Source of the DNA: Natrinema ejinorense | GTDB lineage: Archaea > Halobacteriota > Halobacteria > Halobacteriales > Natrialbaceae | Direction: 5' to 3' | Assembly (NCBI RefSeq): GCF_002494345.1 | Contig: NZ_NXNI01000001.1 | Location: forward strand, 1,612,001 to 1,676,000 | DNA: 64,000 bases | Shown here: positions 2,357 through 55,819 of the stretch, in pieces | Position numbering within the stretch: position 1 is the first letter of the stretch | How the letters are laid out: each line of letters begins with the position of its first letter | The notes under the pieces: generated by a model | What the model was told of the DNA's origin: nothing | Database searches by the model: none | Seen by the model: only the letters and a program-made list of their open reading frames with translations | Program-made: the position numbers and the translations under genes

Positions 2357-3352
2357 ATGTATAAACATGGATCTCCTATAGTCTCTGTAGTTGTTGGAGC
2401 ATATAATGAAGAAGAGACAATAGCAGATACAATACAAAGTATATTAGGACAGACGTTTTCTGATTTTGAGATACTGGTTGTGGATGATGGGTCGACGGAT
2501 GATACTCAGCGTATTGTTAGAAGTTTTGATGACCAGAGGGTTAATCTGATAGTTAACGAAACTAATATTGGGCTTCCACGATCACTCAATCGAGGAATCT
2601 CCCAAGCCAAAGGAACGTATATCGCACGTATTGACGCAGATGAGCGGTCGCTCCCAACTCGGTTAGAACGACAGGTCAACGTTCTTGAAGTGCGAGAAGA
2701 CGTTCAAGTCGTCGGTTGCTGGTATCAAGTAATTGGCCGAGACGGTGAACGGATCGTCGATATCGAAATTCCAGCGGAACGACCGTTTGACATCGATGAC
2801 TTGTTGAAAGAGGGTCCAGGGATCGCCCACGGTTCTGTAATGATGCGAAAAGAGGCAGTTGACACTGTCGGGAAATATCGAGAACAATTTACGCTAGCTC
2901 AGGACTACGACCTCTGGTTTCGGATGGCAGAAGAGTTTGGCCCGGGCTTTGTCCATGTTGTTCCAGAAGTTCTCTATGAACGTCGGCTATCAGCGGACCA
3001 AATGGCGAAGCGATCGAAGCAGCGGTTATTCACGTCGTTTGCTAAAAGAGGTGCGAGACGTCGCCGTAACGGGAAGAACGAGGACCTAGCAGAATTGGAA
3101 AGGAAAGCACAACAAATGTCGACTCGGAACTTTACCGAGAACGAGCGTGAGTCGATGTATCACTATCTCGCTGGAGTACAATTACTCAGCGGGGGCGATA
3201 ATTCGGCGGCACGACGGCGGTTTTTACTCGCTGTAAAAGCAGCACCGACGAACGTCCGACCTTGGTATCGGCTGTTCTTATCATGTCTCTCCGACGATCG
3301 CCGTAATAAGGTGAAAAACACCGTCCAGACAGTACTAGACCGAAAGGTATAA
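2357..3352 (+). CDS. Glycosyltransferase family 2
   Basis: The 331-residue protein has a GT-A fold. SVVVGAYNEEETI opens the domain, VDDGSTDDTQ (about residues 41-50) is the nucleotide-binding acidic loop, and ARIDADE (about 90-96) is the DxD-type metal site. The acceptor-binding region has HGSVMMRKEAV and QDYDLWFRM, both typical of GT2 enzymes of polysaccharide loci. The C-terminal ~80 residues are basic and helical, with a TPR-like stretch. The first third of the gene is AT-rich like its upstream neighbour; the rest is closer to backbone composition. It most likely extends a lipid-linked glycan on the cytoplasmic side. Confidence 0.88.
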   Translation: MYKHGSPIVSVVVGAYNEEETIADTIQSILGQTFSDFEILVVDDGSTDDTQRIVRSFDDQRVNLIVNETNIGLPRSLNRGISQAKGTYIARIDADERSLPTRLERQVNVLEVREDVQVVGCWYQVIGRDGERIVDIEIPAERPFDIDDLLKEGPGIAHGSVMMRKEAVDTVGKYREQFTLAQDYDLWFRMAEEFGPGFVHVVPEVLYERRLSADQMAKRSKQRLFTSFAKRGARRRRNGKNEDLAELERKAQQMSTRNFTENERESMYHYLAGVQLLSGGDNSAARRRFLLAVKAAPTNVRPWYRLFLSCLSDDRRNKVKNTVQTVLDRKV

Positions 3353-4179: not shown

Positions 4180-5679
4180 TTAGTCTAGATCGTTCGAATC
4201 AGCCGATTCTGTCAGTAGCCCTATTTCCTGTCGCGATCGGCTGATAATTTGCTCGAACTCGTTCACTCTCAATACTAGCAGTAGAACCGCGTATAAAACG
4301 ATTCCTGAAGGTAGTGCAACAGTAAGAAAGATAAGACCTCTGAAATGAACAGACAGGTACGAAACAGAGAGCCATACTATCATCGATGCGAGAAGGCACT
4401 TGATGGATAGATAATACGGATATTCCCATACCATTATTTTGTTACTTATGAATGTAGTGAGTATGAAATACAGGAGGTAGGAAATCAAGGTTGCGATAGC
4501 CGCTCCCGCAATTCCGTGATAGGGTATCAACAGGACATTCAATAAAAGGTTAGAGACCGCAGCAACGGAGAGAATTATTGGCAACCATCTCGTTTTCTCC
4601 ATTAATTGAATTGGATATGTCGATAATTGGCCAAGGCCATAGAAGAAAGTTCCAAGTACCACCCACGGGATTATGACGGTCGATCCAGAGTATTCGCTAT
4701 CGAGTACAGTCTGAACGAGCTCTGGACCGATAGCTATGAGGCCAAAAGCGGCGGGAAATGCAATTAGAAGATACGCTCTAACTGTCACAGAGATAGATTC
4801 ACTTGCAGCCTCTGATCCATTATTTTCGAAGGTCTTTACGACTTCTGGATACGCTGCAAGAGAGAGTAGCGAAAATATAAAGAAAATAATTCGATAGAAT
4901 ATACTATACCCTGCCGCATACTTTCCGACGGTGACTGAACCAAGAAAAAAGAAAATCAAATAATTATCTGCCAATTCGAGCACTTTCCCACTAAGTTGTG
5001 ATCCAATAAATGGCACGCCGAACTCATACGATTGTTTGAGCTTTTTGAATGAAAAATACTTGGGGGAGTAGTTACCTAATTTGTATAAATGTCTAAGTTC
5101 GATGGCTGACAATAATCCAGTCACCAATATCATTCCGATGAGAGCACCGACAACATCAAACGGGGTGTAGTAAATGAGTGCTGCACCCACTAACAGTTGT
5201 AATACCGTATTTAGACATGTGAAAGTGCTGTATCTAATAATATTATTCTCCACACGCCTAATAGCGGTGAGCAACATGAACAGTCCATTTCCCCCGACTA
5301 TGAATACTCCCAGAAAAAGGGGCAACACCAAACGGGTAGTAAAGTGTCTATCTAGAACCAAGAGGCCCCCAACCCAGATGACAAATAAAACTATATAAAT
5401 GAGGAAGTAGGCGTTAAGTAGCGTCGATAAAAGTGGTCTAATACTATTTTCATTAGATGATTGCTCAAAATATCTGAGTATCGACTGCCTGAGCCACGAA
5501 CTCAGGAATATTATAACGAAGCTTACCGTCGTGAGGACGACTGTATAATCTCCATATTGAGACGGGGTAAGGAGTGTCGTGAACACGAGGACAGTAGCGA
5601 ACTGCGTAACGGCTGGGATAACCTTTGCAGGAAGGTAGCCGAGAACGTCTTTACTGAGTTTCTCTGTAAACGTCGTCAT
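4180..5679 (-). CDS. Polysaccharide/oligosaccharide flippase (Wzx, MATE-like)
   Basis: This 499-residue integral membrane protein has about 14 hydrophobic segments. The opening LGYLPAKVIPAVTQFATVLVFTTLL and the repeated PYGDY-like loop (PSQYGDYTVV) are typical of the polysaccharide biosynthesis (MOP superfamily) flippases. It would move lipid-linked oligosaccharides across the membrane, the role AglR plays in haloarchaeal N-glycosylation. The start overlaps the stop of the upstream alkaline-phosphatase-superfamily gene by one base (TGATG), so the two are translationally coupled. Confidence 0.87.
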   Translation of the reverse strand: MTTFTEKLSKDVLGYLPAKVIPAVTQFATVLVFTTLLTPSQYGDYTVVLTTVSFVIIFLSSWLRQSILRYFEQSSNENSIRPLLSTLLNAYFLIYIVLFVIWVGGLLVLDRHFTTRLVLPLFLGVFIVGGNGLFMLLTAIRRVENNIIRYSTFTCLNTVLQLLVGAALIYYTPFDVVGALIGMILVTGLLSAIELRHLYKLGNYSPKYFSFKKLKQSYEFGVPFIGSQLSGKVLELADNYLIFFFLGSVTVGKYAAGYSIFYRIIFFIFSLLSLAAYPEVVKTFENNGSEAASESISVTVRAYLLIAFPAAFGLIAIGPELVQTVLDSEYSGSTVIIPWVVLGTFFYGLGQLSTYPIQLMEKTRWLPIILSVAAVSNLLLNVLLIPYHGIAGAAIATLISYLLYFILTTFISNKIMVWEYPYYLSIKCLLASMIVWLSVSYLSVHFRGLIFLTVALPSGIVLYAVLLLVLRVNEFEQIISRSRQEIGLLTESADSNDLD

Positions 5680-7193
5680 CAGATGTAGCCGAGATCACGA
5701 AGTGTGTCTTCGACGCCCTCATCGTAGTGCGTCACAGTGCCTATTTTCCCGAACGATTCGACGGTTTCAAACAACTCTTCCTCTAATTTGTCTGAAATAT
5801 CGTTAGCACCGTCCTCGATTGGTTCTTCACCGTCGATATCGACTGTTGCGAGTCTTCGTTCACCAGTCGATTTCACCGTCAATTTCATCCCATCGTTGTC
5901 GTATATCGTTTTGATCTCAAAATCGTATTGATCGTAGTCCGTCTCCGGGTACTTTTGCATAATTCGTTTGATTCCGTCGAATGGTGATCCGAGATATTCT
6001 GCAATAGCGTACTCTCGACCGGGATCATCACTATGACGAGGAAGCAGTGTGGAATCCTGACCAAGAAGGCTATCTAACTCAATAGAAACCCCACTCGTCT
6101 CTAGAATCGTTGGGAATAGGTCGTGGGTTTGAACCAAGCTATCCACAGTAACGAAATCAGTCGACTTCGGATAGGAAATTAGGAGGGGAACACGGACCAC
6201 CGCATCGTTAAGTGCGAGCGAATGGCCCATTTGACCAAAATCACCGAGGTTTTCGCCATGATCTCCGACGACGATGAACATCGTGTTCTCTAGCAGGTCC
6301 CGTTCCGAAAGTTCGCGATAGAGTTTACCGATCAAGTAATCAGTATGGCGAATCGTCCCATCGTAAAATGACTGGAGGAGCGCGAAGTCCTCTTCGGACA
6401 TCTCGACGGCCTTCGCATAATTATAGAGGCGCGGGTCTTGATTAACATCCGAATAGTCGACATCACTGTGTTTTGTTGGGGCAACAGACAAGAAATGTTC
6501 CTTCGGTGGGAGATATTTGAGATGAGTTTCCATGAAATTTAGATATGTGAAAAATGGCTCATTTCCGCTCTCCATGATGTCAACTAACTTTTTAACGTTT
6601 CCCTCACTTCCTTTGGGAGTTCGTCGTCGTTCGCCGACGATATCCCCGTTCGTCTGACTCACGGCAAACTTGTAACCTAAATTAGCGACATCTCGGAAAG
6701 AGCCTTCGTTGCGAACGAATTCGATGATATCAGAGAGAAACGTCGTGCTGAATCCATTTTCCGCGAACGAACTCTTCACTGATCCATACTTCGTATTGGT
6801 CGGGAACAGGCGGGTTGTAATATACGTTTCGTCAAACCCGTCATTTAACCCATTATTCGATGCGAGTAGGTGATTTGCAGTGATGCAGTATGTCTTATAT
6901 CCTTCTCGCTGGAGTAATTCAGGTAGCGTATTCAGATCGGAGCGAATTGAGGGAGAACTCCGAGTAGCGTGATGCTTTGACGTATATACTCCGGTGAACA
7001 TAGATGCATGCGAGGGTACCGTCCACGGCGCTGTGGCTATCGCATTCGTATAGAGCGTTGATTCCGAAGCAATTTGCTCGAGGTTTGGTGACGTTGGCCT
7101 GTCGTACCCATAAGCAGAAAAGTTTCGAGCTCGAGCAGCATCAGAGACGAGAAATATCACGTTAGGTGATTGACTCTCGGAATCAGTCGGCAT
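5679..7193 (-). CDS. 'Sulfatase'-type alkaline phosphatase superfamily enzyme with Thr at the nucleophile position
   Basis: The protein has about 504 residues from the ATG at 7193; a GTG at 7235 would add 14. It opens with PNVIFLVSDAARARNFS, the metal-binding N-terminus of the superfamily, and has VVGDHGENLGDFG (about residue 300), the second metal site. At the nucleophile position, canonical sulfatases have C/S-x-P-S-R, but here the motif reads TVPSHASMFTG. Thr there is typical of phosphoglycerol or phosphoethanolamine transferases and some uncharacterised hydrolases. It may therefore modify or cleave a phospho- or sulfo-group on the surface glycan. It is translationally coupled to the flippase downstream. 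Confidence 0.82.
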   Translation of the reverse strand: MPTDSESQSPNVIFLVSDAARARNFSAYGYDRPTSPNLEQIASESTLYTNAIATAPWTVPSHASMFTGVYTSKHHATRSSPSIRSDLNTLPELLQREGYKTYCITANHLLASNNGLNDGFDETYITTRLFPTNTKYGSVKSSFAENGFSTTFLSDIIEFVRNEGSFRDVANLGYKFAVSQTNGDIVGERRRTPKGSEGNVKKLVDIMESGNEPFFTYLNFMETHLKYLPPKEHFLSVAPTKHSDVDYSDVNQDPRLYNYAKAVEMSEEDFALLQSFYDGTIRHTDYLIGKLYRELSERDLLENTMFIVVGDHGENLGDFGQMGHSLALNDAVVRVPLLISYPKSTDFVTVDSLVQTHDLFPTILETSGVSIELDSLLGQDSTLLPRHSDDPGREYAIAEYLGSPFDGIKRIMQKYPETDYDQYDFEIKTIYDNDGMKLTVKSTGERRLATVDIDGEEPIEDGANDISDKLEEELFETVESFGKIGTVTHYDEGVEDTLRDLGYI

Positions 7194-7262
7194 AGACGGT
7201 ATCTGGCACAAACGTCGTATTATTCTTTCGTTCACGAATAGGGCGTACGACGAATCCGCAGG

Positions 7263-7358: not shown

Positions 7359-7640
7359 TCAAGAGTCGGTCCGCTCGAGATCACTCGTATCAAGTTTTCC
7401 CTCGAGATACGCTCTTCCTTTCGAACTCACCTGATAGTATCCCGCCTCGTCGACTTTCTCGATTAGCCCATTAGCTTCGAGCACTCGAAGTCGCTGTCGA
7501 ACCGTCGAATACCCGATCTCGTGGCCGTGTCGATTCAGATTTCGGTAGAGAGGTTTCGCAGGGAGCTCGAGGTCGTGCTCCTCGAGAAACTCGAGAACGA
7601 GACCGTCTTTCAGAGACATCCACTCCGGACGGGGTCGCAT
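7359..7640 (-). CDS. Small winged-helix DNA-binding protein (PhiH1-repressor/MarR-like)
   Basis: The 93-residue protein opens with RPRPEWMSLKDGLVLEFLEEH, the hallmark N-terminus of a large family of small haloarchaeal winged-helix regulators. The recognition helix lies in IGYSTVRQRLRVLEANGLIEK, and the wing in AGYYQVSSKGRAYLEG. It should bind DNA as a local repressor; the target is unknown. It stands alone between the glycan locus and the next backbone genes. Confidence 0.82.
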   Translation of the reverse strand: MRPRPEWMSLKDGLVLEFLEEHDLELPAKPLYRNLNRHGHEIGYSTVRQRLRVLEANGLIEKVDEAGYYQVSSKGRAYLEGKLDTSDLERTDS

Positions 7641-8487: not shown

Positions 8488-10926
8488 TCACTCCTCGAGC
8501 GCGACCGACTTCCCGTTTAGCACGTCCGCTTCGGTAACGGTCGCCGTCCGATTGCCGACCGTATACTCGCCGGCGTAGGGCACCCTCACCGTCGCCTGAC
8601 CGTTCTCGTCGACCGCCACTGTCCGCTCGTACGTGAACGACTCCCCGGAGACGGAGACGTCCGTCTCGACTGTTACGTTCGACCCCGGCTCACCGGACGC
8701 TGCGAGCCTCGCTCCGGGAACGACTGCGAAGGCCGTGGCGTCGTCGTCGACGGCGATCGCCTGGTAGTGGGCCAGCCCGTCGGAGCCGTTTCCGCCTGCC
8801 CCACGATCCTCGAGCAGGCGCGCTTGTGCGGTGTCGGACGAGACGTTGCCGTCGACGGGGGTCACGACGACGTAGCCGACCCGGCCGCTGAACTGGTCGT
8901 ACCAGCCGTCGGGATCGGAATCCGCACGGAACTCCTCGTAATTACTCTGGGCGTAGCCGTACCCCCGTGATTCGCCGTTGACGAAGTGGTTGTACATCCG
9001 GTTGTCGCCCCACTTGCTCAGCACGAAGGTCTCGGGATAGGTTCGGTTCGCCGCGTCGGCGTGGTCGTTGATCGCGTCGACCGCTTCGATCTGTGCCCCG
9101 CTGTAGGTCACGTCGGCCGTCAAGGTGGGGACGTAGATGAGGCTCAGCCCGAACAGGAGCAGACCGATCCCGAGCAGATAGACGAGTCGTCGCCTATCGG
9201 GAATCGAAATGGAGGGCTCGAGTCCGCCGTCGGCGGCGACGGTCGCTCCCTCCCGCAGGTCATCCCCAGCAGTGGCGTCTCGATTCCGAAACGGGACCGG
9301 CGGACGCGCCAGCTCGATGGCCGAGAGCAGTCGGACGACGCCCATCCCGGTGGGGATGGCCAGCAGAATCGCCAACTGCCCGGCGAAGCGGACCTGAATC
9401 CCTGCCAGGACGAGCAGGTAGCCCGCGTAGGTGCCAAGGAGCAACCAGCCGGGTTCGTACCGACGGACGACGAGCCAGGCGATCCAGCCCAGGACCGCGA
9501 GTGCGATGTAAAATCCCATGCCAAGCTGATAGAGCGGCCCGAAGATGACGAAGTACTCCGTGGAAAACAGCGAGGCCGCCTCGGTCGCGCTCTCCCGGAA
9601 GAGCAGATCGTCGACGCGCGCCATCGCTTCGGCCCAGTCGTCGGGTTGCAGGTGCCGAAAGGCGAGAAGTACCCCTGTGGCGACGGCCGTCTCGAGTGCG
9701 AGCAAGCCGCCGAGGTGGACATCGAGCCGCCGCCATAGTTCGCCGAGTGCGATTACGGCGATCGAGCCGCCAAGCACCAGTGCCGGCGTTGTCGCAACGA
9801 ACTCCGGCTGCCAGCCCCAGCGGTGGTGCAGTGCCAGCGAGAGCCAGCTTCCAAATGAGAGGCCAACGAGCAACGGCAGGCTCGCGAGTGCAGGCGAGAC
9901 ATCTGCTCGAGCGTCCATCACGACTCGCAACGCGACGTAGCCGGCGAGCGGGAGCAGTAACAGCGGCGAGCCGCCCCAGGCGTGGATCCCTGCTGCGACT
10001 GAGAGGCCGAAGACGACGGCGACGACCCACGTCATCGGCGTTCGAAGCTGTGCCAGAACGCCCGTACGCGGCTCCGCCCTGGCCTCGAGCCGTCGCTGGA
10101 GATCAACTGCGAGCCACGTCAGCGTCAGTAGCGTAATTCCGAGCCAAAAGTACTGGTGGAGCTGGTGATCGATGAACCCCAGTCCCGTGTAGACCGCGTG
10201 GATCGGCGTCACTGCAAAGACCAGAACGGACGCGACCCCGACGCGAACGTCTCGAGTCAGCAAGACGGCCACTTTGTAAATCACGAGCCCGAGCGCGACA
10301 GACGCGACGACGGGGAGCCATGCTGCGACGGTGTCGGCCGCTCCCTGTCCGCCGCCAAGTAACTCGGCAACAAACCAGTTCGTCGCGTGGGCCAGTGGTC
10401 TCCGGAGCGCGACGCTGTGATGGGGATCAACCAGTACTCCATACTCCGTCGGTCCCGATGCCTCCGCCACGAGCGCTTCCATCCAGTAGCGGAAGTAGTA
10501 GGGATCGTTCGCGGGCGAGACGACTCGGCCGTTTTGAAAGACCGACCGAAACGCCGTCATTCTGGCACCGGCCACGACGACGAGCGCCCCGACCAACGCG
10601 ACCATCGCTCGAGGATCGATGGCCGTCCAGAACCGCTCGAGATCGAACCCGCGGTCGTCAGCTGCTGAATCCAACTCCTCTTCGAACTCCTCACCTGCTA
10701 TCACTGCTTCGACGACTTCGGGGTCGGCAACTCGATACGCGCCATCGACCTTCTCGACGATTCCGCTCGAAACGAGTTCTCCGAACGTTCCCGAATCCAG
10801 ATCGATATCGTCGAACGTCCATGTGTCGTATTCGGCGTCGGCCGTGAGGACGGTCTCGAGTACCTGGTCGCCGTCGTCGCGATCCTCGAGAAACTTCTGT
10901 ACCGTCTCGCGGGCGTCGGCGGTCAT
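8488..10926 (-). CDS. AglB/STT3-like membrane protein with N-terminal winged-helix-like domain and degenerate catalytic motif
   Basis: The 812-residue protein begins with about 80 soluble residues that look like a small winged helix (TFGELVSSGIVEKVDGAYRV). About 12 membrane segments follow. STT3 features are visible: NDPYYFRYW in the first external loop (the first D-x-D-like metal site) and GLGFIDHQLHQYFW (the DHH-like loop). After the last membrane segment, the WWDYG peptide-binding motif of true oligosaccharyltransferases is replaced by SKWGDNRMYN. A beta-sandwich-like domain ends the protein. It is probably an STT3 paralogue with a different acceptor or a non-catalytic role rather than the main N-glycosylation enzyme. 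It lies close to the glycan locus. Confidence 0.75.
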   Translation of the reverse strand: MTADARETVQKFLEDRDDGDQVLETVLTADAEYDTWTFDDIDLDSGTFGELVSSGIVEKVDGAYRVADPEVVEAVIAGEEFEEELDSAADDRGFDLERFWTAIDPRAMVALVGALVVVAGARMTAFRSVFQNGRVVSPANDPYYFRYWMEALVAEASGPTEYGVLVDPHHSVALRRPLAHATNWFVAELLGGGQGAADTVAAWLPVVASVALGLVIYKVAVLLTRDVRVGVASVLVFAVTPIHAVYTGLGFIDHQLHQYFWLGITLLTLTWLAVDLQRRLEARAEPRTGVLAQLRTPMTWVVAVVFGLSVAAGIHAWGGSPLLLLPLAGYVALRVVMDARADVSPALASLPLLVGLSFGSWLSLALHHRWGWQPEFVATTPALVLGGSIAVIALGELWRRLDVHLGGLLALETAVATGVLLAFRHLQPDDWAEAMARVDDLLFRESATEAASLFSTEYFVIFGPLYQLGMGFYIALAVLGWIAWLVVRRYEPGWLLLGTYAGYLLVLAGIQVRFAGQLAILLAIPTGMGVVRLLSAIELARPPVPFRNRDATAGDDLREGATVAADGGLEPSISIPDRRRLVYLLGIGLLLFGLSLIYVPTLTADVTYSGAQIEAVDAINDHADAANRTYPETFVLSKWGDNRMYNHFVNGESRGYGYAQSNYEEFRADSDPDGWYDQFSGRVGYVVVTPVDGNVSSDTAQARLLEDRGAGGNGSDGLAHYQAIAVDDDATAFAVVPGARLAASGEPGSNVTVETDVSVSGESFTYERTVAVDENGQATVRVPYAGEYTVGNRTATVTEADVLNGKSVALEE

Positions 10927-11142: not shown

Positions 11143-11418
11143 TCACGAATCTACGTCTTTTCGTGGGTCATCGATGAGTTCATAAAGCCCTTCGTACACT
11201 TTGCGTGCGTTTCCATGTTCTACAAGCCGGCCAAGACGGTCACGGACATATTGCAGACTATATCCTGTTTCTTCAGCGACGTACGGTGCAGTTACACGCC
11301 CCTCATTCAGCATATCAAGTAACTTCTCGTCGGCCGGCCCGAGATCTTCTTTTTCAAGCATCGAATCTCGGTTAGTAGTTGTTACGCTCACGTCTAAATG
11401 GACAATGGCTTCGGACAT
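11143..11418 (-). CDS. Winged-helix regulator at the left edge of the element
   Basis: From the ATG at 11418 the protein has 91 residues; an ATG at 11439 adds seven but lies inside a palindrome, so I prefer the shorter form. LGPADEKLLDMLNEGRVTAPYVAEETGYSLQYVRDRLGRLVEHGNARKV is a clear helix-turn-helix plus wing. It is divergent from the small operon starting at 11549, with a 19-bp palindrome between them, so it probably represses itself and that operon. It marks the start of the accessory region. Confidence 0.8.
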   Translation of the reverse strand: MSEAIVHLDVSVTTTNRDSMLEKEDLGPADEKLLDMLNEGRVTAPYVAEETGYSLQYVRDRLGRLVEHGNARKVYEGLYELIDDPRKDVDS

Positions 11419-11433
11419 AATCCTTATCCCCTT

Positions 11434-11452
11434 ACCCATAGGTCCTAAGGGT
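11434..11452. promoter_or_regulatory. 19-bp palindromic operator between divergent genes
   Basis: The sequence ACCCATAGGTCCTAAGGGT is a dyad (ACCC-n-TAGG-n-CCTA-n-GGGT). It lies between the winged-helix gene and the divergent small operon, a usual place for an autoregulatory operator. Binding by the 11143-11418 product is inference. Confidence 0.5.
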
Positions 11453-15116: not shown

Positions 15117-17237
15117 TCAGTCAGAGTATCCTCGAGAACTCTGACCGCCACCCTTGGTGCGGTCAAAAACATCGTCGGCGGTATCGCTAGAGTGGCCCGG
15201 TAACTGGGGCTGGGACTGTGACTTCGGATCGAAGTCGATGACTTCTTTTTCGTTATCCAGTGCCCGAACTTCGATACCGCGCCACTCGCCGTCGACGCCG
15301 ACGAGGGCCTCCGAGTAGCCCGCCAGATCGTTTCCGGGGACGGCGTCCTGGATGAACCGCATCTGTGCGAAATTGAGGCCGAATTCGTCGGCCCACTCGC
15401 GGTCCATTCCGTCGAGGTGGTGGAACTGCTTGATTGCACACTGGTCGATGATCGCCTCTGACTCGGGATGCTGAAAGAACTCGTCGACGGTCTGTGTGAC
15501 GAGGCGGATCGAGAGGTCGTGATGGCGGTGATGTCGAAAGACGATTTCGAGATACTCGAGACTCGCTGCGTCTTGCATGATGTAGCGGGCTTCGTCAATA
15601 ACGAAGACGACCTCTTTGTCCGTCTCTTTCGCTCGCTCGTAGACCGCCGAGATCAGCAGTTGCATGATGAGGCTCGTACTGCCGCCGAGACTCCCCTCCT
15701 GTTGGGCGAGATCGAGATAGATCACCTTCTCGTCACGGATATCGAACTCCGTTTCCCGTCCGAGATTTTCGTACCGGCCGCCCTCGTCAAAGGAACGTAA
15801 CTGGTCGATGAGCCACGTCGCGTCCTCGCGGATCTTGGTCGCCTCCTCGTGAGTGCGGACGACGTGTTCGTCAGGGTCGTCGATCATCCCCTCGAGAATA
15901 TCGAGGGCGTCACGCATCGTCGGACTCTCGTTGTGGTGCGTCGCGATATCGTCGGTGATTCCCTTATGGTCGTAGGCGCTCTCGATCGCCGTCTCGAGCG
16001 TCGTTCGTCGATCGCCGAGTCGAATCCCGCGGAGGGCAAAATAGTTCGAGAGAAAACTCATGACGCTATCGAGCTTTTCTCGGTAGGGGCTGGCGTCCTC
16101 ACCCATCGCTCGCTGTACCCGTTCGGGCGTCGGCTTGATTTCGAGTGGGTTCAGGCCCATGTTCCCACCGATCGTAATGCGCTCACCGCCGAGAGCTTCG
16201 GCGACGCCTGCCCAGTTGTTCAGCGGTTCTAAGATTATCCCGATGCGATCCTCGCTGTGTTCGATCGATCGGATGAAGTTCTGCTTCGCGCCGAACGATT
16301 TGCCAGAGCCGGGATCGCCGATCGTGAACATCGCATAGCCGTTTTCTCGAGCGAACGGGTCGATCACGACGGGGCTCTGATTCCGCCAGTGATCGCCGAA
16401 TTCGACGCCACCGTCCTCGAGGATCGTCGCATTGTGTGGTGACGCTAACAGCGCACCGATGGCCCCGCCGAGCGCGGTCGCCTCTCGGCCGAAGGGATTG
16501 GGGCCGATCGGTGCCGCCGCCTGAATCGCGAGATCTTGCTTGCAGATGGCCGTCTTCGGTGAGAGCCCTGCTGGTTCCTCGCGGAGGCGACTCTTGACGG
16601 TGCGGACGGCATCCCGAAGCTGATCACGGGTTGCCGCACGGATCGTGATGAACGTTCCCTGATCGAACACGCGACTGCCGTTCTCAACGCTCTTGTAGGT
16701 CGAGACCGCCTCGACCGCTCGCTCCTGAAGGTACGCACCACGCACGCTCTGCTCGAGGTCTGCATCGGCTCGGAGATCGTCTGCGACCCGTTGGAGTTCG
16801 TCACGTGCTTGTTGTTGATCCTTCGGCGTGATGTGTACCGTCAGGTCGAACTCGACGTCAGTGAGTTCGAACAGTTCGTTGAAATACCCGTCTTTCGGGT
16901 AATCTGGATAGTCGGCAATATACAGCGTGGACGTCCATTGGTTGCCGACACGCGCGGTACGAGTATCCCACTCGATCGCGGCCGGTGCGATCGCGTGCGT
17001 GTGCCGTTCCGCAACCTCATCGAGCAGTTTGCCTTCATCGCGTCCGTCTTCGATAACCTCGTCCTCGAGCAACTCACTGAGGTCGATCTCTTTGATCTCC
17101 GCGGCATTCCGGTGATCCCATGCGATTTTCGCGAGGAGTGTGAGCGCAGCGGTGATCCCCAGATAGAGAGCGAGACCGGTCTGCGTTCCGGGATCGGGAA
17201 CCACGACCCCGTTCACGATCGAGAGACGGACAGTCAT
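15117..17237 (-). CDS. VirB4/TraC-like conjugation ATPase
   Basis: The 706-residue protein has an N-terminal membrane segment (about residues 18-38). The VirB4 N-terminal domain follows (IADYPDYPKDGYFNELFEL, about 100-125), then an ATPase domain with Walker A GDPGSGKS (from residue 307) and Walker B VVFVIDEARY (about 545). HHDLSIRLVTQTVDEFF is the sensor-like motif that follows. VirB4 powers pilus biogenesis and substrate transfer at the inner face of the membrane. It starts within the stop of the preceding gene (ATGA overlap), in a minus-strand transfer operon. Confidence 0.87.
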   Translation of the reverse strand: MTVRLSIVNGVVVPDPGTQTGLALYLGITAALTLLAKIAWDHRNAAEIKEIDLSELLEDEVIEDGRDEGKLLDEVAERHTHAIAPAAIEWDTRTARVGNQWTSTLYIADYPDYPKDGYFNELFELTDVEFDLTVHITPKDQQQARDELQRVADDLRADADLEQSVRGAYLQERAVEAVSTYKSVENGSRVFDQGTFITIRAATRDQLRDAVRTVKSRLREEPAGLSPKTAICKQDLAIQAAAPIGPNPFGREATALGGAIGALLASPHNATILEDGGVEFGDHWRNQSPVVIDPFARENGYAMFTIGDPGSGKSFGAKQNFIRSIEHSEDRIGIILEPLNNWAGVAEALGGERITIGGNMGLNPLEIKPTPERVQRAMGEDASPYREKLDSVMSFLSNYFALRGIRLGDRRTTLETAIESAYDHKGITDDIATHHNESPTMRDALDILEGMIDDPDEHVVRTHEEATKIREDATWLIDQLRSFDEGGRYENLGRETEFDIRDEKVIYLDLAQQEGSLGGSTSLIMQLLISAVYERAKETDKEVVFVIDEARYIMQDAASLEYLEIVFRHHRHHDLSIRLVTQTVDEFFQHPESEAIIDQCAIKQFHHLDGMDREWADEFGLNFAQMRFIQDAVPGNDLAGYSEALVGVDGEWRGIEVRALDNEKEVIDFDPKSQSQPQLPGHSSDTADDVFDRTKGGGQSSRGYSD

Positions 17238-50797: not shown

Positions 50798-51625
50798 TTA
50801 TACGACGACGGAGACGACGCCCCCGCCGGCGATCGCGAGTGCGCCGAGACCGAAACAGACGACCCAGAACGGAACCCGATCGACGACTCGCATGAGGGCA
50901 TCGATCGTGAGGTAGCCGACGACGGCGCTGATCCCGAGTGCGGCCAGTGCGGGCCCGAGCGCGATGCCGGGGAGTCCGCCGGCACCCGCGACGGTGAGCG
51001 CGGCCGCACCGAGGCTCGCGGGGATCGACAACAGAAAGGAGAGCCGGAACGCGGCCGGCGGGTCGTAGCTGCGAAACAGTAGCGTACTCGTCGTCACGCC
51101 CGACCGAGAGATACCGGGGAGGATCGCGACGCCCTGGACGGCCCCGACGAGCACCGAATCGAGCAGCGTCGGCGCGTCGCGAATCCCCATCGACACCGAC
51201 TCCGAGGCGAGCTGGAGGACGCCGGTCAGTATCAACAGGACGCCGATCGCCGCGATGAAGACGCCGCCGGTAAGCCGGCCGGCGAGATCGACCGCGTACA
51301 CGTACAGCGGAATCCCCACGAGACCAGTCATGAGCGAGGCAACGACGATGTACGATGCGATCGCGTTCTCACTGGCGTACGCCCGATGGGGTCGCCATCC
51401 GGGCACCGAACGAACGGTCGTCGCGATGTCCCTACGATAGTAGGTCGCCGCCGACAGCGTCGTCCCGAGTTGCAAAAACAGCGCCAGTTGCAACGCCACG
51501 CTGGGATCCGTTCCGACGGCAGTCAAGAACAGTGCGAGGTTCCCCTGGCTCGAGACGGGCAACCATTCGACGACCCCCTGAACGATCCCGGCGAGTATCG
51601 CAACGACGAGTTCGGCGCGGTTCAC
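50798..51625 (-). CDS. uppP: Undecaprenyl-diphosphatase (UppP/BacA)
   Basis: I choose the GTG at 51625 (275 residues, MNRAELVVAILAGIVQGVVE); a GTG at 51643 adds six residues. The E-W-L-P-V-S-S-Q-G-N motif near the N-terminus and LPGISRSGVTT in the middle are the active-site signatures of UppP. It removes phosphate from polyprenyl diphosphate to recycle the lipid carrier used in glycan assembly. In haloarchaea it would serve N-glycosylation or polysaccharide synthesis. Confidence 0.88.
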   Translation of the reverse strand: MNRAELVVAILAGIVQGVVEWLPVSSQGNLALFLTAVGTDPSVALQLALFLQLGTTLSAATYYRRDIATTVRSVPGWRPHRAYASENAIASYIVVASLMTGLVGIPLYVYAVDLAGRLTGGVFIAAIGVLLILTGVLQLASESVSMGIRDAPTLLDSVLVGAVQGVAILPGISRSGVTTSTLLFRSYDPPAAFRLSFLLSIPASLGAAALTVAGAGGLPGIALGPALAALGISAVVGYLTIDALMRVVDRVPFWVVCFGLGALAIAGGGVVSVVV

Positions 51626-51643
51626 TGGTGCTAGTCGACGCAC

Positions 51644-52832: not shown

Positions 52833-54635
52833 TCACTCCACTGTCACGCTCTTGGCCAGATTGCGCGGCTTGTCGATCGAGCGTCCCAGCAGGTTGGCAA
52901 CCCAGTAGGCGACCAGTTGCAACTGGACGTTCGCGAGCACTGACGCACTGATGTCGTCGACGGCGGGAATCTCGAGGACGTGGTCGGCGTAGCGCGTCAC
53001 GTCGGACTCCCCGTCGGTGATCGCCACGACGGGTGCGTCGCGGGCTTCGACTTCTTTGACGTTTCCGATCGTCTTCCGAGCGGTTTCGCCGTCGCCGGTG
53101 ACGATCGCGAACACGGGCGTGGTTTCGGTCACGAGGGCCAGCGGGCCGTGTTTCAACTCGCCGGATGCGAATCCCTCCGCGTGACGGTAGGTGATCTCCT
53201 TCATTTTCAGCGCGCCCTCGAGCGCGACCGGGTAGTGGTAGCCCCGTCCCACGAAGAAGTACGCGTCGGCATCGACGAACGCCTCGGCGACCGCTCTGGC
53301 GGTCGTCGTTTCGAGGACCGTCTGGATCTGCCCGGGGATGTCTCGGAGTGCCTCGAGTTCCCCGCGAGTCGGGCCGTCGCCGAGTTCGAACGCCAGCAGT
53401 GCGAGCGCGAGTTGCTGGCTCGCGAACGTCTTCGTCGCGGCGACGCCGATCTCGGGACCCGCTCTGATGTAGAGGGCGTGATCGCACTCTCGAGCGGCGG
53501 AGCTGCCGACCGTGTTGGTCACGGCGAGCGTCGTCGCCCCGGCGCGGTCGGCCTCACGGAGGGCGCGTAACGTGTCGGCGGTCTCGCCGCTCTGGGTGAC
53601 GCCGACGACGAGCGTCCCCTCGTCGACGGGAACGCGATCGCTCCCGTATTCGCTGGCGAGAAACGCCTGTGCCCTCACGCCGCCCGACCGGAGCCGCTCC
53701 GCACCGAACATCGCCGCGTGATACGACGTTCCGCAGGCGACGAACTGGACCGGACCGCCGTGGTCGATGGCGGCGAGTTCCGCCAGATCGACCGTTCCCT
53801 CGAGTTCGTCGATCCGGCCCCGGAGACACTGTCGTAGGGCCGTCGGCTGCTCGTGGATCTCCTTGAGCATATAGTGGTCGTAGCCGCTTTTCTCCGCGTC
53901 TTCGGAGTCCCACGCGATCGTTTCCGTCGGCCGGTCGACGGGTTCTCCCGCTCCGTCAGTGATGACCGCGCCGTCCGCGGAGAGTCGAGCGAAATCGCCG
54001 TTCTCGAGGTAGCAGACGCGGTCGGTGTACTCGATGAACGCGGGGACGTCGCTCGCGAGGTACGTCCCGGTCTCGCCGAGGCCGACGACGAGCGGGGAAT
54101 CCTGGCGAGCCGCGTACACCGTCTCCGAGCCGTCGAAAACGGCGGCGATCGCGTAACTGCCCTCGAGCTGGTCGATCGCCAGCCGGAACGCAGCCTCGGG
54201 GTCGGCACCGCGGTCGAGGTAGCGCCCGATCAGGTGAGGAACGACTTCGGTGTCCGTCTCGCTCTGGAAGGCGACGCCCGCATCGACGAGATCATCGCGC
54301 AGCCGCTGGTAGTTCTCGATGATCCCGTTGTGGACGACGGCGACCCGTCCCGCCGCATCGCCGTGTGGGTGGGCGTTGGCGTCGGACGGTTTGCCGTGTG
54401 TACTCCAGCGCGTGTGACCGATTCCGACCGGTTCGCCCGCGAGGGCAGGGCGAGAAACCACGTCCTCGAGTGCCGACAGCTCGCCGGCGGCCTTCGAGAC
54501 CCGCATCGAGGGGGTCGGTACGGCCAGTCCGGCGGAATCGTAGCCACGATACTCGAGTTGCGAGAGCCCGTCGAGAACGACGTCGACTGCATCGCTACCG
54601 TCGGTAGAGCCGACGTACCCCACGATACCACACAT
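52833..54635 (-). CDS. glmS: Glutamine-fructose-6-phosphate aminotransferase (isomerizing)
   Basis: The 600-residue protein is full length. MCGIVGYVG holds the N-terminal Cys nucleophile of the glutaminase domain. HTRWSTHGKPSDANAHPH and VAVVHNGIIENY follow. The two SIS domains carry FVACGTSYHAAMFG, VGVTQSGETADTL and the C-terminal NLAKSVTVE. It makes glucosamine-6-phosphate from fructose-6-phosphate and glutamine in the cytoplasm, the first step to UDP-GlcNAc. It lies two bases after the glmU-like gene, so they form an operon. Confidence 0.95.
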   Translation of the reverse strand: MCGIVGYVGSTDGSDAVDVVLDGLSQLEYRGYDSAGLAVPTPSMRVSKAAGELSALEDVVSRPALAGEPVGIGHTRWSTHGKPSDANAHPHGDAAGRVAVVHNGIIENYQRLRDDLVDAGVAFQSETDTEVVPHLIGRYLDRGADPEAAFRLAIDQLEGSYAIAAVFDGSETVYAARQDSPLVVGLGETGTYLASDVPAFIEYTDRVCYLENGDFARLSADGAVITDGAGEPVDRPTETIAWDSEDAEKSGYDHYMLKEIHEQPTALRQCLRGRIDELEGTVDLAELAAIDHGGPVQFVACGTSYHAAMFGAERLRSGGVRAQAFLASEYGSDRVPVDEGTLVVGVTQSGETADTLRALREADRAGATTLAVTNTVGSSAARECDHALYIRAGPEIGVAATKTFASQQLALALLAFELGDGPTRGELEALRDIPGQIQTVLETTTARAVAEAFVDADAYFFVGRGYHYPVALEGALKMKEITYRHAEGFASGELKHGPLALVTETTPVFAIVTGDGETARKTIGNVKEVEARDAPVVAITDGESDVTRYADHVLEIPAVDDISASVLANVQLQLVAYWVANLLGRSIDKPRNLAKSVTVE

Positions 54636-54637
54636 CG

Positions 54638-55819
54638 TTACTGGACCTCCGTTCCGGTCTCGATCGTCCCGCGAACGGTCGTTCCCGCGTTGATGACGGC
54701 ATCGGAGCCGACGATCGTTCCCGGCGCGTAGGTCACGCCGCCACCGTCGTGAACGCGATCCGCGAGCAACGCGCCCAGTCGTTCGGCTTCGTGGACGCGG
54801 TCGCCGACGCGGACGTCGCCTGGCCCCCCGACGACGGTCGAACCTGTGCCGATCCGGACGTTCCGCCCAGTGACGCAGTCGACGAGCGTCGCCCCCGAAC
54901 CGACGCGCGTGTCGGCGTCGATGACGCTGGTCTCGACGACGGCGTTCGCTCCGATCGTCGCGTTCTTGCCGAGTGCGACGTTCGGGCCGACGACGGCGCC
55001 CGGGCCGACGACGCAGTCGGCGGAAATCACGACCGGCTCGACGATCGTTGCCGAGTCGTGAACGCGAGCATCGGCCGAAATCTCGCTTTCGACACCGTCG
55101 ACGCTCTCGAAGAGGGTCTCGGTTACCTCGAGGAGATCCCAGGGATACGTCGCGTCGATCCAGATACCCTCGGACGTGACGCCCCGGACGGTCTCCGTCG
55201 ACTCGATCGCGTTCGCGATCCCGTCGACGAGCGAGTACTCGTTCAGTTGTGGTTCCGGCCCCCGGAGATATTCGAACAGCTCCGGATCGAAGGCGTAGAC
55301 GCCCGCGTTGAGCTGGTACGTCCGGTCGTCGCGGGGACGTTCGACGATTTCCAGAACGCTGCCGTTGTCCTCGAGGATCACGCCGCCGTAGTTGTCGACG
55401 GCCGCGTCGCGAACGAGTCCGAGCGTCGCGATCGCGTCGTCGTCATCGTCGTAAGCAGCGAGGACGTCCTCGACGATCCGCTGGGCCACGAGTTGATCGC
55501 CGTTGAGGACGAGTTGGGGCTCGGAAACCTCGGGTTCGGCAGCCAACAGGGCGTGCCCACTGCCGAGTTGCTTGTCCTGGACGACGTACTCGAGAGAGGC
55601 GTCGCGGTACGTCGAGCCGAAATACGACTGGACGTGCGTCCGCCCGTATCCGACGACGACGGTGAGCTCCGTAATGCCGGCGTCGACGAGCGCATCGAAG
55701 ACGTGCTCGAGAATCGGCTTGGTCGCCGCGGGAAGCATCGGCTTTGGCCGATGTTTCGTCAGGGGACGGAGACGGGCTCCCTCCCCCGCTGCGAGAACAA
55801 CCGCAGAATGAATCGTCAT
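54638..55819 (-). CDS. glmU: GlmU-like sugar-1-phosphate nucleotidyltransferase/acetyltransferase
   Basis: The 393-residue protein has an N-terminal nucleotidyltransferase domain (VVLAAGEGARLRPLTKHRPK, about residues 7-26), metal/substrate residues in LVLNGDQLV, and a C-terminal left-handed beta-helix of hexapeptide repeats (for example VVGPGAVVGPNVALGKNATI). This fits archaeal GlmU: glucosamine-1-phosphate acetylation plus UDP-GlcNAc formation. It is upstream of and coupled with glmS. A glucose-1-phosphate thymidylyltransferase-like enzyme is the alternative. Confidence 0.88.
   Translation of the reverse strand: MTIHSAVVLAAGEGARLRPLTKHRPKPMLPAATKPILEHVFDALVDAGITELTVVVGYGRTHVQSYFGSTYRDASLEYVVQDKQLGSGHALLAAEPEVSEPQLVLNGDQLVAQRIVEDVLAAYDDDDDAIATLGLVRDAAVDNYGGVILEDNGSVLEIVERPRDDRTYQLNAGVYAFDPELFEYLRGPEPQLNEYSLVDGIANAIESTETVRGVTSEGIWIDATYPWDLLEVTETLFESVDGVESEISADARVHDSATIVEPVVISADCVVGPGAVVGPNVALGKNATIGANAVVETSVIDADTRVGSGATLVDCVTGRNVRIGTGSTVVGGPGDVRVGDRVHEAERLGALLADRVHDGGGVTYAPGTIVGSDAVINAGTTVRGTIETGTEVQ

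Follow-up and report, generated by a model that had tools for sequence, protein, structure and literature searches.

To our knowledge, the textbook view is that N-glycosylation is sequon-dependent and that the WWDYG motif is the hallmark of every oligosaccharyltransferase (OST). The Glu of the TIXE motif and the Asp of the GND motif in these enzymes act in activation of the acceptor amide. The closest described system is AglB. In the A. fulgidus enzyme D47, D161 and H163 hold the metal and E360 of TIXE contacts it via water, and WWDYG together with the DK/MI motif makes up the pocket for the Ser/Thr(+2) of the sequon (PMC8342417, PMC3703281); the DK/MI motif is recognisable only by superposition of structures (PMC3703281). 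One activity has stood apart from this picture. The S-layer glycoprotein (SLG) of Halobacterium salinarum carries at Asn-2 a GalNAc-linked repeating-unit glycan that comes from a pyrophosphate (DolPP) carrier, and this is the only one of its glycans that is blocked by bacitracin (PMC2952790, PMC8674786). When Ser-4 was replaced by Val, Leu or Asn in work from 1998, glycosylation of Asn-2 persisted (PMC2952790). This Ser-independent glycosylation was left unexplained in reviews because only a single OST gene was recognised (PMC2952790), and the role of AglB in the Asn-2 glycan has been called "still not clear" (PMC6591318). A second OST gene is not mentioned in the open-access papers searched, which run to 2026.

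The window analysed here, a stretch of 64,000 nucleotides from Natrinema ejinorense, contains on its minus strand an open reading frame with an ATG start (8488..10926) for a protein of 812 amino acids, which by its sequence is a divergent paralog of STT3/AglB and a candidate second OST. It matches A. fulgidus AglB-L (3WAJ/5GMY) at E=1.3e-25 in a profile comparison, and a search of the whole PDB with the profile of this STT3-like family returned the same protein and, weakly, STT3B, with no others. Profile-profile alignment (hhalign) of the family with 31 haloarchaeal AglBs, including that of the same genome, gave 99.8% at E=8e-28; in it D141 falls opposite the first DXD Asp and E449 opposite the TIXE Glu, F-I-D-H has its counterpart in L-D-H of AglB, and the QVRF motifs of the two coincide. 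The paralog therefore has the multi-TM catalytic core of the STT3/AglB/PglB oligosaccharyltransferases, a 13-TM-like core with GND, D-H, TIXE Glu and Q-x-RF as in A. fulgidus AglB (3WAJ/5GMY/7E9S; TIGR04154), and shares with AglB its C-terminal AglB_L1 domain and a place in a glycan gene cluster. AglB_L1 (PF18079; aa 738-789, 8560..8715 on the minus strand; Pfam E=5e-9, hhalign E=5e-11) was the sole domain found in a Pfam scan, at 36.6 bits against a gathering score of 23.6. The AglB model TIGR04154 (archaeo_STT3) gave 99.8 bits against a curated cut-off of 450. A normal AglB with WWDYG, scoring 869 bits on that model, is encoded elsewhere in the same genome (G000:C1:2825736-2828375). Unlike AglB, the STT3-like protein has no WWDYG, has an extra N-terminal domain, has lost the third metal-ligand His in many members, and is found in PHPT/DolPP-type clusters apart from aglB. 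The first-pass annotation had described an STT3/AglB relative without WWDYG and proposed structure prediction and comparison with AglB as a check; the AlphaFold2 model (pLDDT 90, many TM-length helices), the significant profile homology and the absence of WWD from 60 homologs all bear this description out. Full-length homologs with 35-76% identity are present in about 75/149 related genomes and, together with the residues invariant in 60 members, exclude a chance origin. A viral origin of the gene was considered and dropped, as no relatives were found among 2.9 million viral contigs.

Conservation within the family is concentrated on the catalytic residues, with N140, D141, H254, E449, R513, R643 and N646 unchanged in all 60 aligned members, the most distant of which have 35% identity. 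The first DXD-type loop, A139-N-D141-P-Y-Y-F145 (10492..10512, minus strand), aligns with the GND of A. fulgidus AglB, D141 taking the place of D47, and N140, D141 and Y143 are invariant in it (n=60; the first DXD Asp, D141, in 60/60). E449, also found in 60/60, lies in a TIXE-like loop, T448-E449-A-A-S-L-F454 (9565..9585, minus strand), and is aligned with E360 in the TIAE of A. fulgidus AglB and with the TIQE Glu of the genome's own AglB, the position of the EL5 TIXE/SVSE motif. The transmembrane motif Q511-V-R513-F514 (9385..9396, minus strand) is common to AglB, aligning with its QVRF, and R513 and F514 are invariant. The second DXD-type loop, F251-I-D253-H-Q255 (10162..10176, minus strand), is more variable: G250, F251 and H254 are invariant, position 253 is D or E, and position 255 is H in 27, R in 24, Q in 5 and N in 2 of the 60. 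The third ligand His of the A. fulgidus enzyme (H163 in D161-H-H163) is thus Q in the 812-aa protein and N in two members. The earlier statement that the metal-site loops are present stands for N140-D-P-Y-Y-F145 and is only partly right for F251-I-D-H-Q255, which is found at these residues but is not fully canonical, having Q for H163. D-H-H has become E-H-R in 24/60 members, mostly other Natrialbaceae, and D-H-Q in Natrinema; in the E-H-R members (L095, L085-L101 and other Natrialbaceae) the change of Asp to Glu is always coupled with that of His to Arg. It is possible that the E-H-R loop marks an altered or metal-free catalytic site.

At the position of SWWDYG the protein has S637-K-W-G-D-N-R-M-Y-N646 (8989..9018, minus strand), the register being taken from the YP..V.S.W context. 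A sequence-only hhalign comparison of the central segment containing S-x-W-G-x-N-R with AglB was not significant (E=0.41), so the register depends on context, namely that the segment follows the last TM helix, precedes the C-terminal domain and shares the surroundings Y-P...V-x-S-x-W. The KWGDN that had been noted in place of WWDYG is indeed there (K638-W-G-D-N642), although across the family its Asp is not conserved (D in 32/60) and the motif is better written S-x-W-G-x-N-R-M-Y-N, with W639 in 59/60 and R643 and N646 in 60/60 members. WWD does not occur in any part of the 60 homologs (0/60) and WWDYG is found in 29/31 canonical haloarchaeal AglBs, so the escape that a canonical motif has been shifted elsewhere in the protein fails. 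It could be supposed instead that the enzyme is an OST paralog which uses ordinary N-X-S/T sequons by means of a restructured pocket, its donor (DolPP) being the only difference from AglB and the N-terminal Asn of the SLG one of several sites. The catalytic residues and glycan clusters would fit such an enzyme, and W639 is retained, as is a nearby polar helix; the S-anchored register, however, has no counterpart of the Asp of WWD, and in the other register this Asp is not conserved. We consider this explanation unlikely, and the SLG termini discussed below also bear on it. Our preferred reading, which we hold to be probable, is that the protein is a second OST beside AglB that transfers a DolPP-linked glycan to the N-terminal Asn of the SLG with no need of Ser/Thr.

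The first 80 residues (10687..10926, minus strand) form a cytosolic winged-helix-like domain that is common to the Ylp1/EMC3-type insertase (hhalign 98%, E=2e-13). Its winged-helix-like topology, suspected in the first-pass annotation, is seen in a confident part of the AlphaFold2 model (helices 19-32 and 45-53, strands 57-60/63-66, pLDDT over 90). In 61 genomes the domain is essentially confined to the STT3-like family and Ylp1, an EMC3/TMCO1-type insertase of the Oxa1 superfamily (EMC3_TMCO1). It stands directly before a TM segment in both and should face the cytosol in both, whereas the remainder of Ylp1 is unrelated to the STT3-like protein. The haloarchaeal Ylp1 proteins (L054:4074-4979, L055:3877-4833, L202) have the 80-aa domain and an extra TM segment. 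One role of the domain may be to anchor the enzyme at the machinery for translation or insertion. A membrane regulator with a DNA-binding domain had also been proposed, and this we reject: the Pfam/NCBIfam profiles gave no match of the protein to a DNA-binding HTH family, and a winged-helix-like domain shared, in 61 genomes, only with the N-termini of an insertase makes a DNA regulator unlikely. Separately, two small winged-helix proteins flank the STT3-like gene at 7359-7640 and 11143-11439 (RNase R-type HTH_12; HTH_24-like). The broader proposal of a catalytically dead STT3 relative, whose role would be that of a regulator, scaffold or chaperone and whose effector would be the winged-helix domain, could appeal to this N-terminus, to the missing WWDYG and to the second DXD loop that is changed in many members. 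It is hard to reconcile with a catalytic Asp and Glu invariant down to 35% identity, with an N-terminal domain that is shared with a membrane insertase and has no HTH family match, and with the conserved pathway neighbourhood, and we regard it as very improbable.

The paralog is present in 70/146 haloarchaeal genomes, normally alongside canonical AglB, which itself occurs in 285/293 members of the order. One Natrinema-type genome that is listed as 100% complete (G022) has the paralog only and no canonical AglB above the cut-off (best E 1.3e-22); the paralog may be its sole OST, or aglB may be absent from the assembly. A Halobacterium-type genome has fragments of a second STT3-like gene (G176:C1:214019-214499 and 215379) that adjoin an S-layer glycoprotein gene 52 kb from the intact copy, and another genome has a broken copy with three stop codons of different kinds (G064:C1:2937867-2940293; L024) 27 kb off an intact one. 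No copy was found in a genus of 15 species, probably Haloferax. The low-salt tetrasaccharide of Hfx. volcanii is attached at the sequon Asn-498 and is carried on DolP. The OST of that pathway (Agl5-Agl15) resembles the enzyme proposed here in that both would serve an AglB-independent N-glycosylation of an S-layer glycoprotein, and identity with it was considered; in view of the missing copy and of that site and carrier it is probably another enzyme, and the identification was dropped.

Glycan genes accompany the paralog at 69/72 loci, only loci >12 kb being counted, with a PHPT-type hexose-1-P transferase at 42, an epimerase at 34, a nucleotidyltransferase at 27, GT4 at 27, GlmS at 13, an SLG gene at 8 and UppP at 7; some clusters also contain Wzy_C and flippase genes. 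In the window itself there are a GT2 glycosyltransferase (2357..3352, plus strand; PF00535 E=4e-35), a MurJ/Polysacc_synt-type lipid-linked glycan flippase (4180..5679, minus strand; PF01943/PF13440) and a sulfatase/phosphotransferase-superfamily enzyme (5679..7235, minus strand; PF00884 E=2e-46), and a PHPT gene lies 5.4-6.8 kb ahead of the window start. In Natrinema altunense (L075) nucleotidyltransferase, GlmS, UppP and paralog follow each other without gaps, UppP directly before the STT3-like gene. In the window the counterparts are at 50.8-55.8 kb, all on the minus strand: UppP/BacA polyprenyl-pyrophosphate phosphatase, the displaced upstream neighbour (50798..51643; tblastn 78% to the L102 family member, Pfam BacA), GlmS, the glucosamine-6-phosphate synthase (52833..54635; 63% identity to a cluster member), and the sugar-1-phosphate nucleotidylyltransferase (54638..55819; 85% identity to a cluster member). 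Some 40 kb (11000-50800) lies between them and the paralog and includes, at 15117-17237 and around, a VirB4-like ATPase with further genes of the conjugation type. The operon here seems to have been interrupted by an integrative element, and no clear direct repeats were found at the ends of the 40-kb insertion. PHPT enzymes make pyrophosphate-linked carriers and UppP recycles such carriers, so the glycan donor is probably linked to dolichyl pyrophosphate.

A relationship with the N-terminus of the SLG can be seen when genomes are compared. A profile ending before the mature protein served to locate SLG-type signal peptides, the best match per genome was taken in 90 genomes, and the ends of the signal peptides were set by a simple rule, not by SignalP. 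An Asn within four residues past the signal peptide occurs in 45/55 genomes with the paralog and in 9/35 without it (Fisher p=1.6e-7), in a test set that includes one (G148) of the few loci on which the hypothesis was formed. The difference lies in Asn residues that are not part of a sequon (35/55 carriers vs 5/35 non-carriers, p=3.6e-6), sequon Asn being alike in the two groups (p=0.55), and at residues 5-24 of the SLG there is no significant difference in Asn. The result survived shuffling within families (p=1e-5) as well as shuffling confined to genera (p=8e-5), and it is visible in single genera, with 5/5 carriers vs 0/3 non-carriers in g33 and 4/4 vs 0/2 in g1, the genus of the window. 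There are exceptions, as about 18% of carriers have no Asn among the first four residues and such an Asn is present in 26% of non-carriers. The rule was revised over several runs, and the other versions in which the orientation was right and the ends were plausible were also significant (p=4e-9, 3e-6); one earlier version, in which signal-peptide ends were misplaced upstream, showed no significant difference for these four residues. The N-terminal Asn in carriers is a sequon in 10/45, as a sequon-using paralog would have it, but the 35/45 that are not sequons count against such an enzyme, as does the fact that replacement of Ser-4 in H. salinarum did not halt glycosylation (PMC2952790).

The genome G148 is that of H. 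salinarum, since its bacteriorhodopsin is identical to the PDB protein and it has four rhodopsins. In it the SLG gene csg (926446-928986), the paralog (932302-934620, 3.3 kb from csg), GlmS, two nucleotidyltransferases and PHPT (938960-940375) all lie within 14 kb, and the paralog has G-N-D, D-H-H, the Glu, Q-V-R-F and S-R-W-S-R-N-R-L-Y-N. The mature product of this csg begins A-N-A-D, where the published start is A-N-A-S, so the sequon is naturally absent. The OST for the repeating-unit glycan has been described as an activity, the paralog as a gene sequence. The two agree in that the paralog is located beside csg, PHPT and GlmS, in that its lost Ser/Thr pocket predicts Ser independence, and in that the STT3-like family is linked with the N-terminal Asn of the SLG.

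The suggestion of an enzyme with another acceptor, made in the first-pass annotation, is thus favoured by AglB homology, conserved catalytic residues, glycan clusters and covariation with the SLG Asn. Since the core is kept, the sequon reader is lost and the gene occurs mainly with N-terminal-Asn SLGs, the paralog is a strong candidate for the OST behind the signal-independent N-glycosylation known in Halobacterium since the 1990s; it would work like an OST and yet not be filed as AglB, as it lacks WWDYG and falls below the AglB cut-off. What we infer for it concerns catalysis, donor, acceptor and a relaxed sequon. A cytoplasmic PHPT-type enzyme would start the glycan as dolichyl-pyrophosphate-HexNAc, with supply from GlmS and the nucleotidylyltransferase, and the glycan would then be flipped outward. 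The STT3-like protein, through D141, E449 and the metal centre, would pass it on to the side-chain amide of the mature N-terminal Asn of the SLG (about position 2), and UppP would recycle the released dolichyl pyrophosphate. With the Trp-Trp-Asp pocket for Ser/Thr(+2) replaced by S-x-W-G-x-N-R-M-Y-N, the acceptor would be picked for its place at the N-terminus or for its S-layer context and not for a sequon. That this is the first sequon-free N-glycosylating OST, one that reads the mature N-terminal Asn of the SLG and explains Asn-2 in Halobacterium, we put at about an even chance. The family offers a gene in H. salinarum and a prediction that covers dozens of genera, and the loss of its Ser/Thr pocket provides a structural reason. 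The old question of Asn-2 can now be tested, and the work could yield an OST that tags an N-terminal Asn without a sequon.
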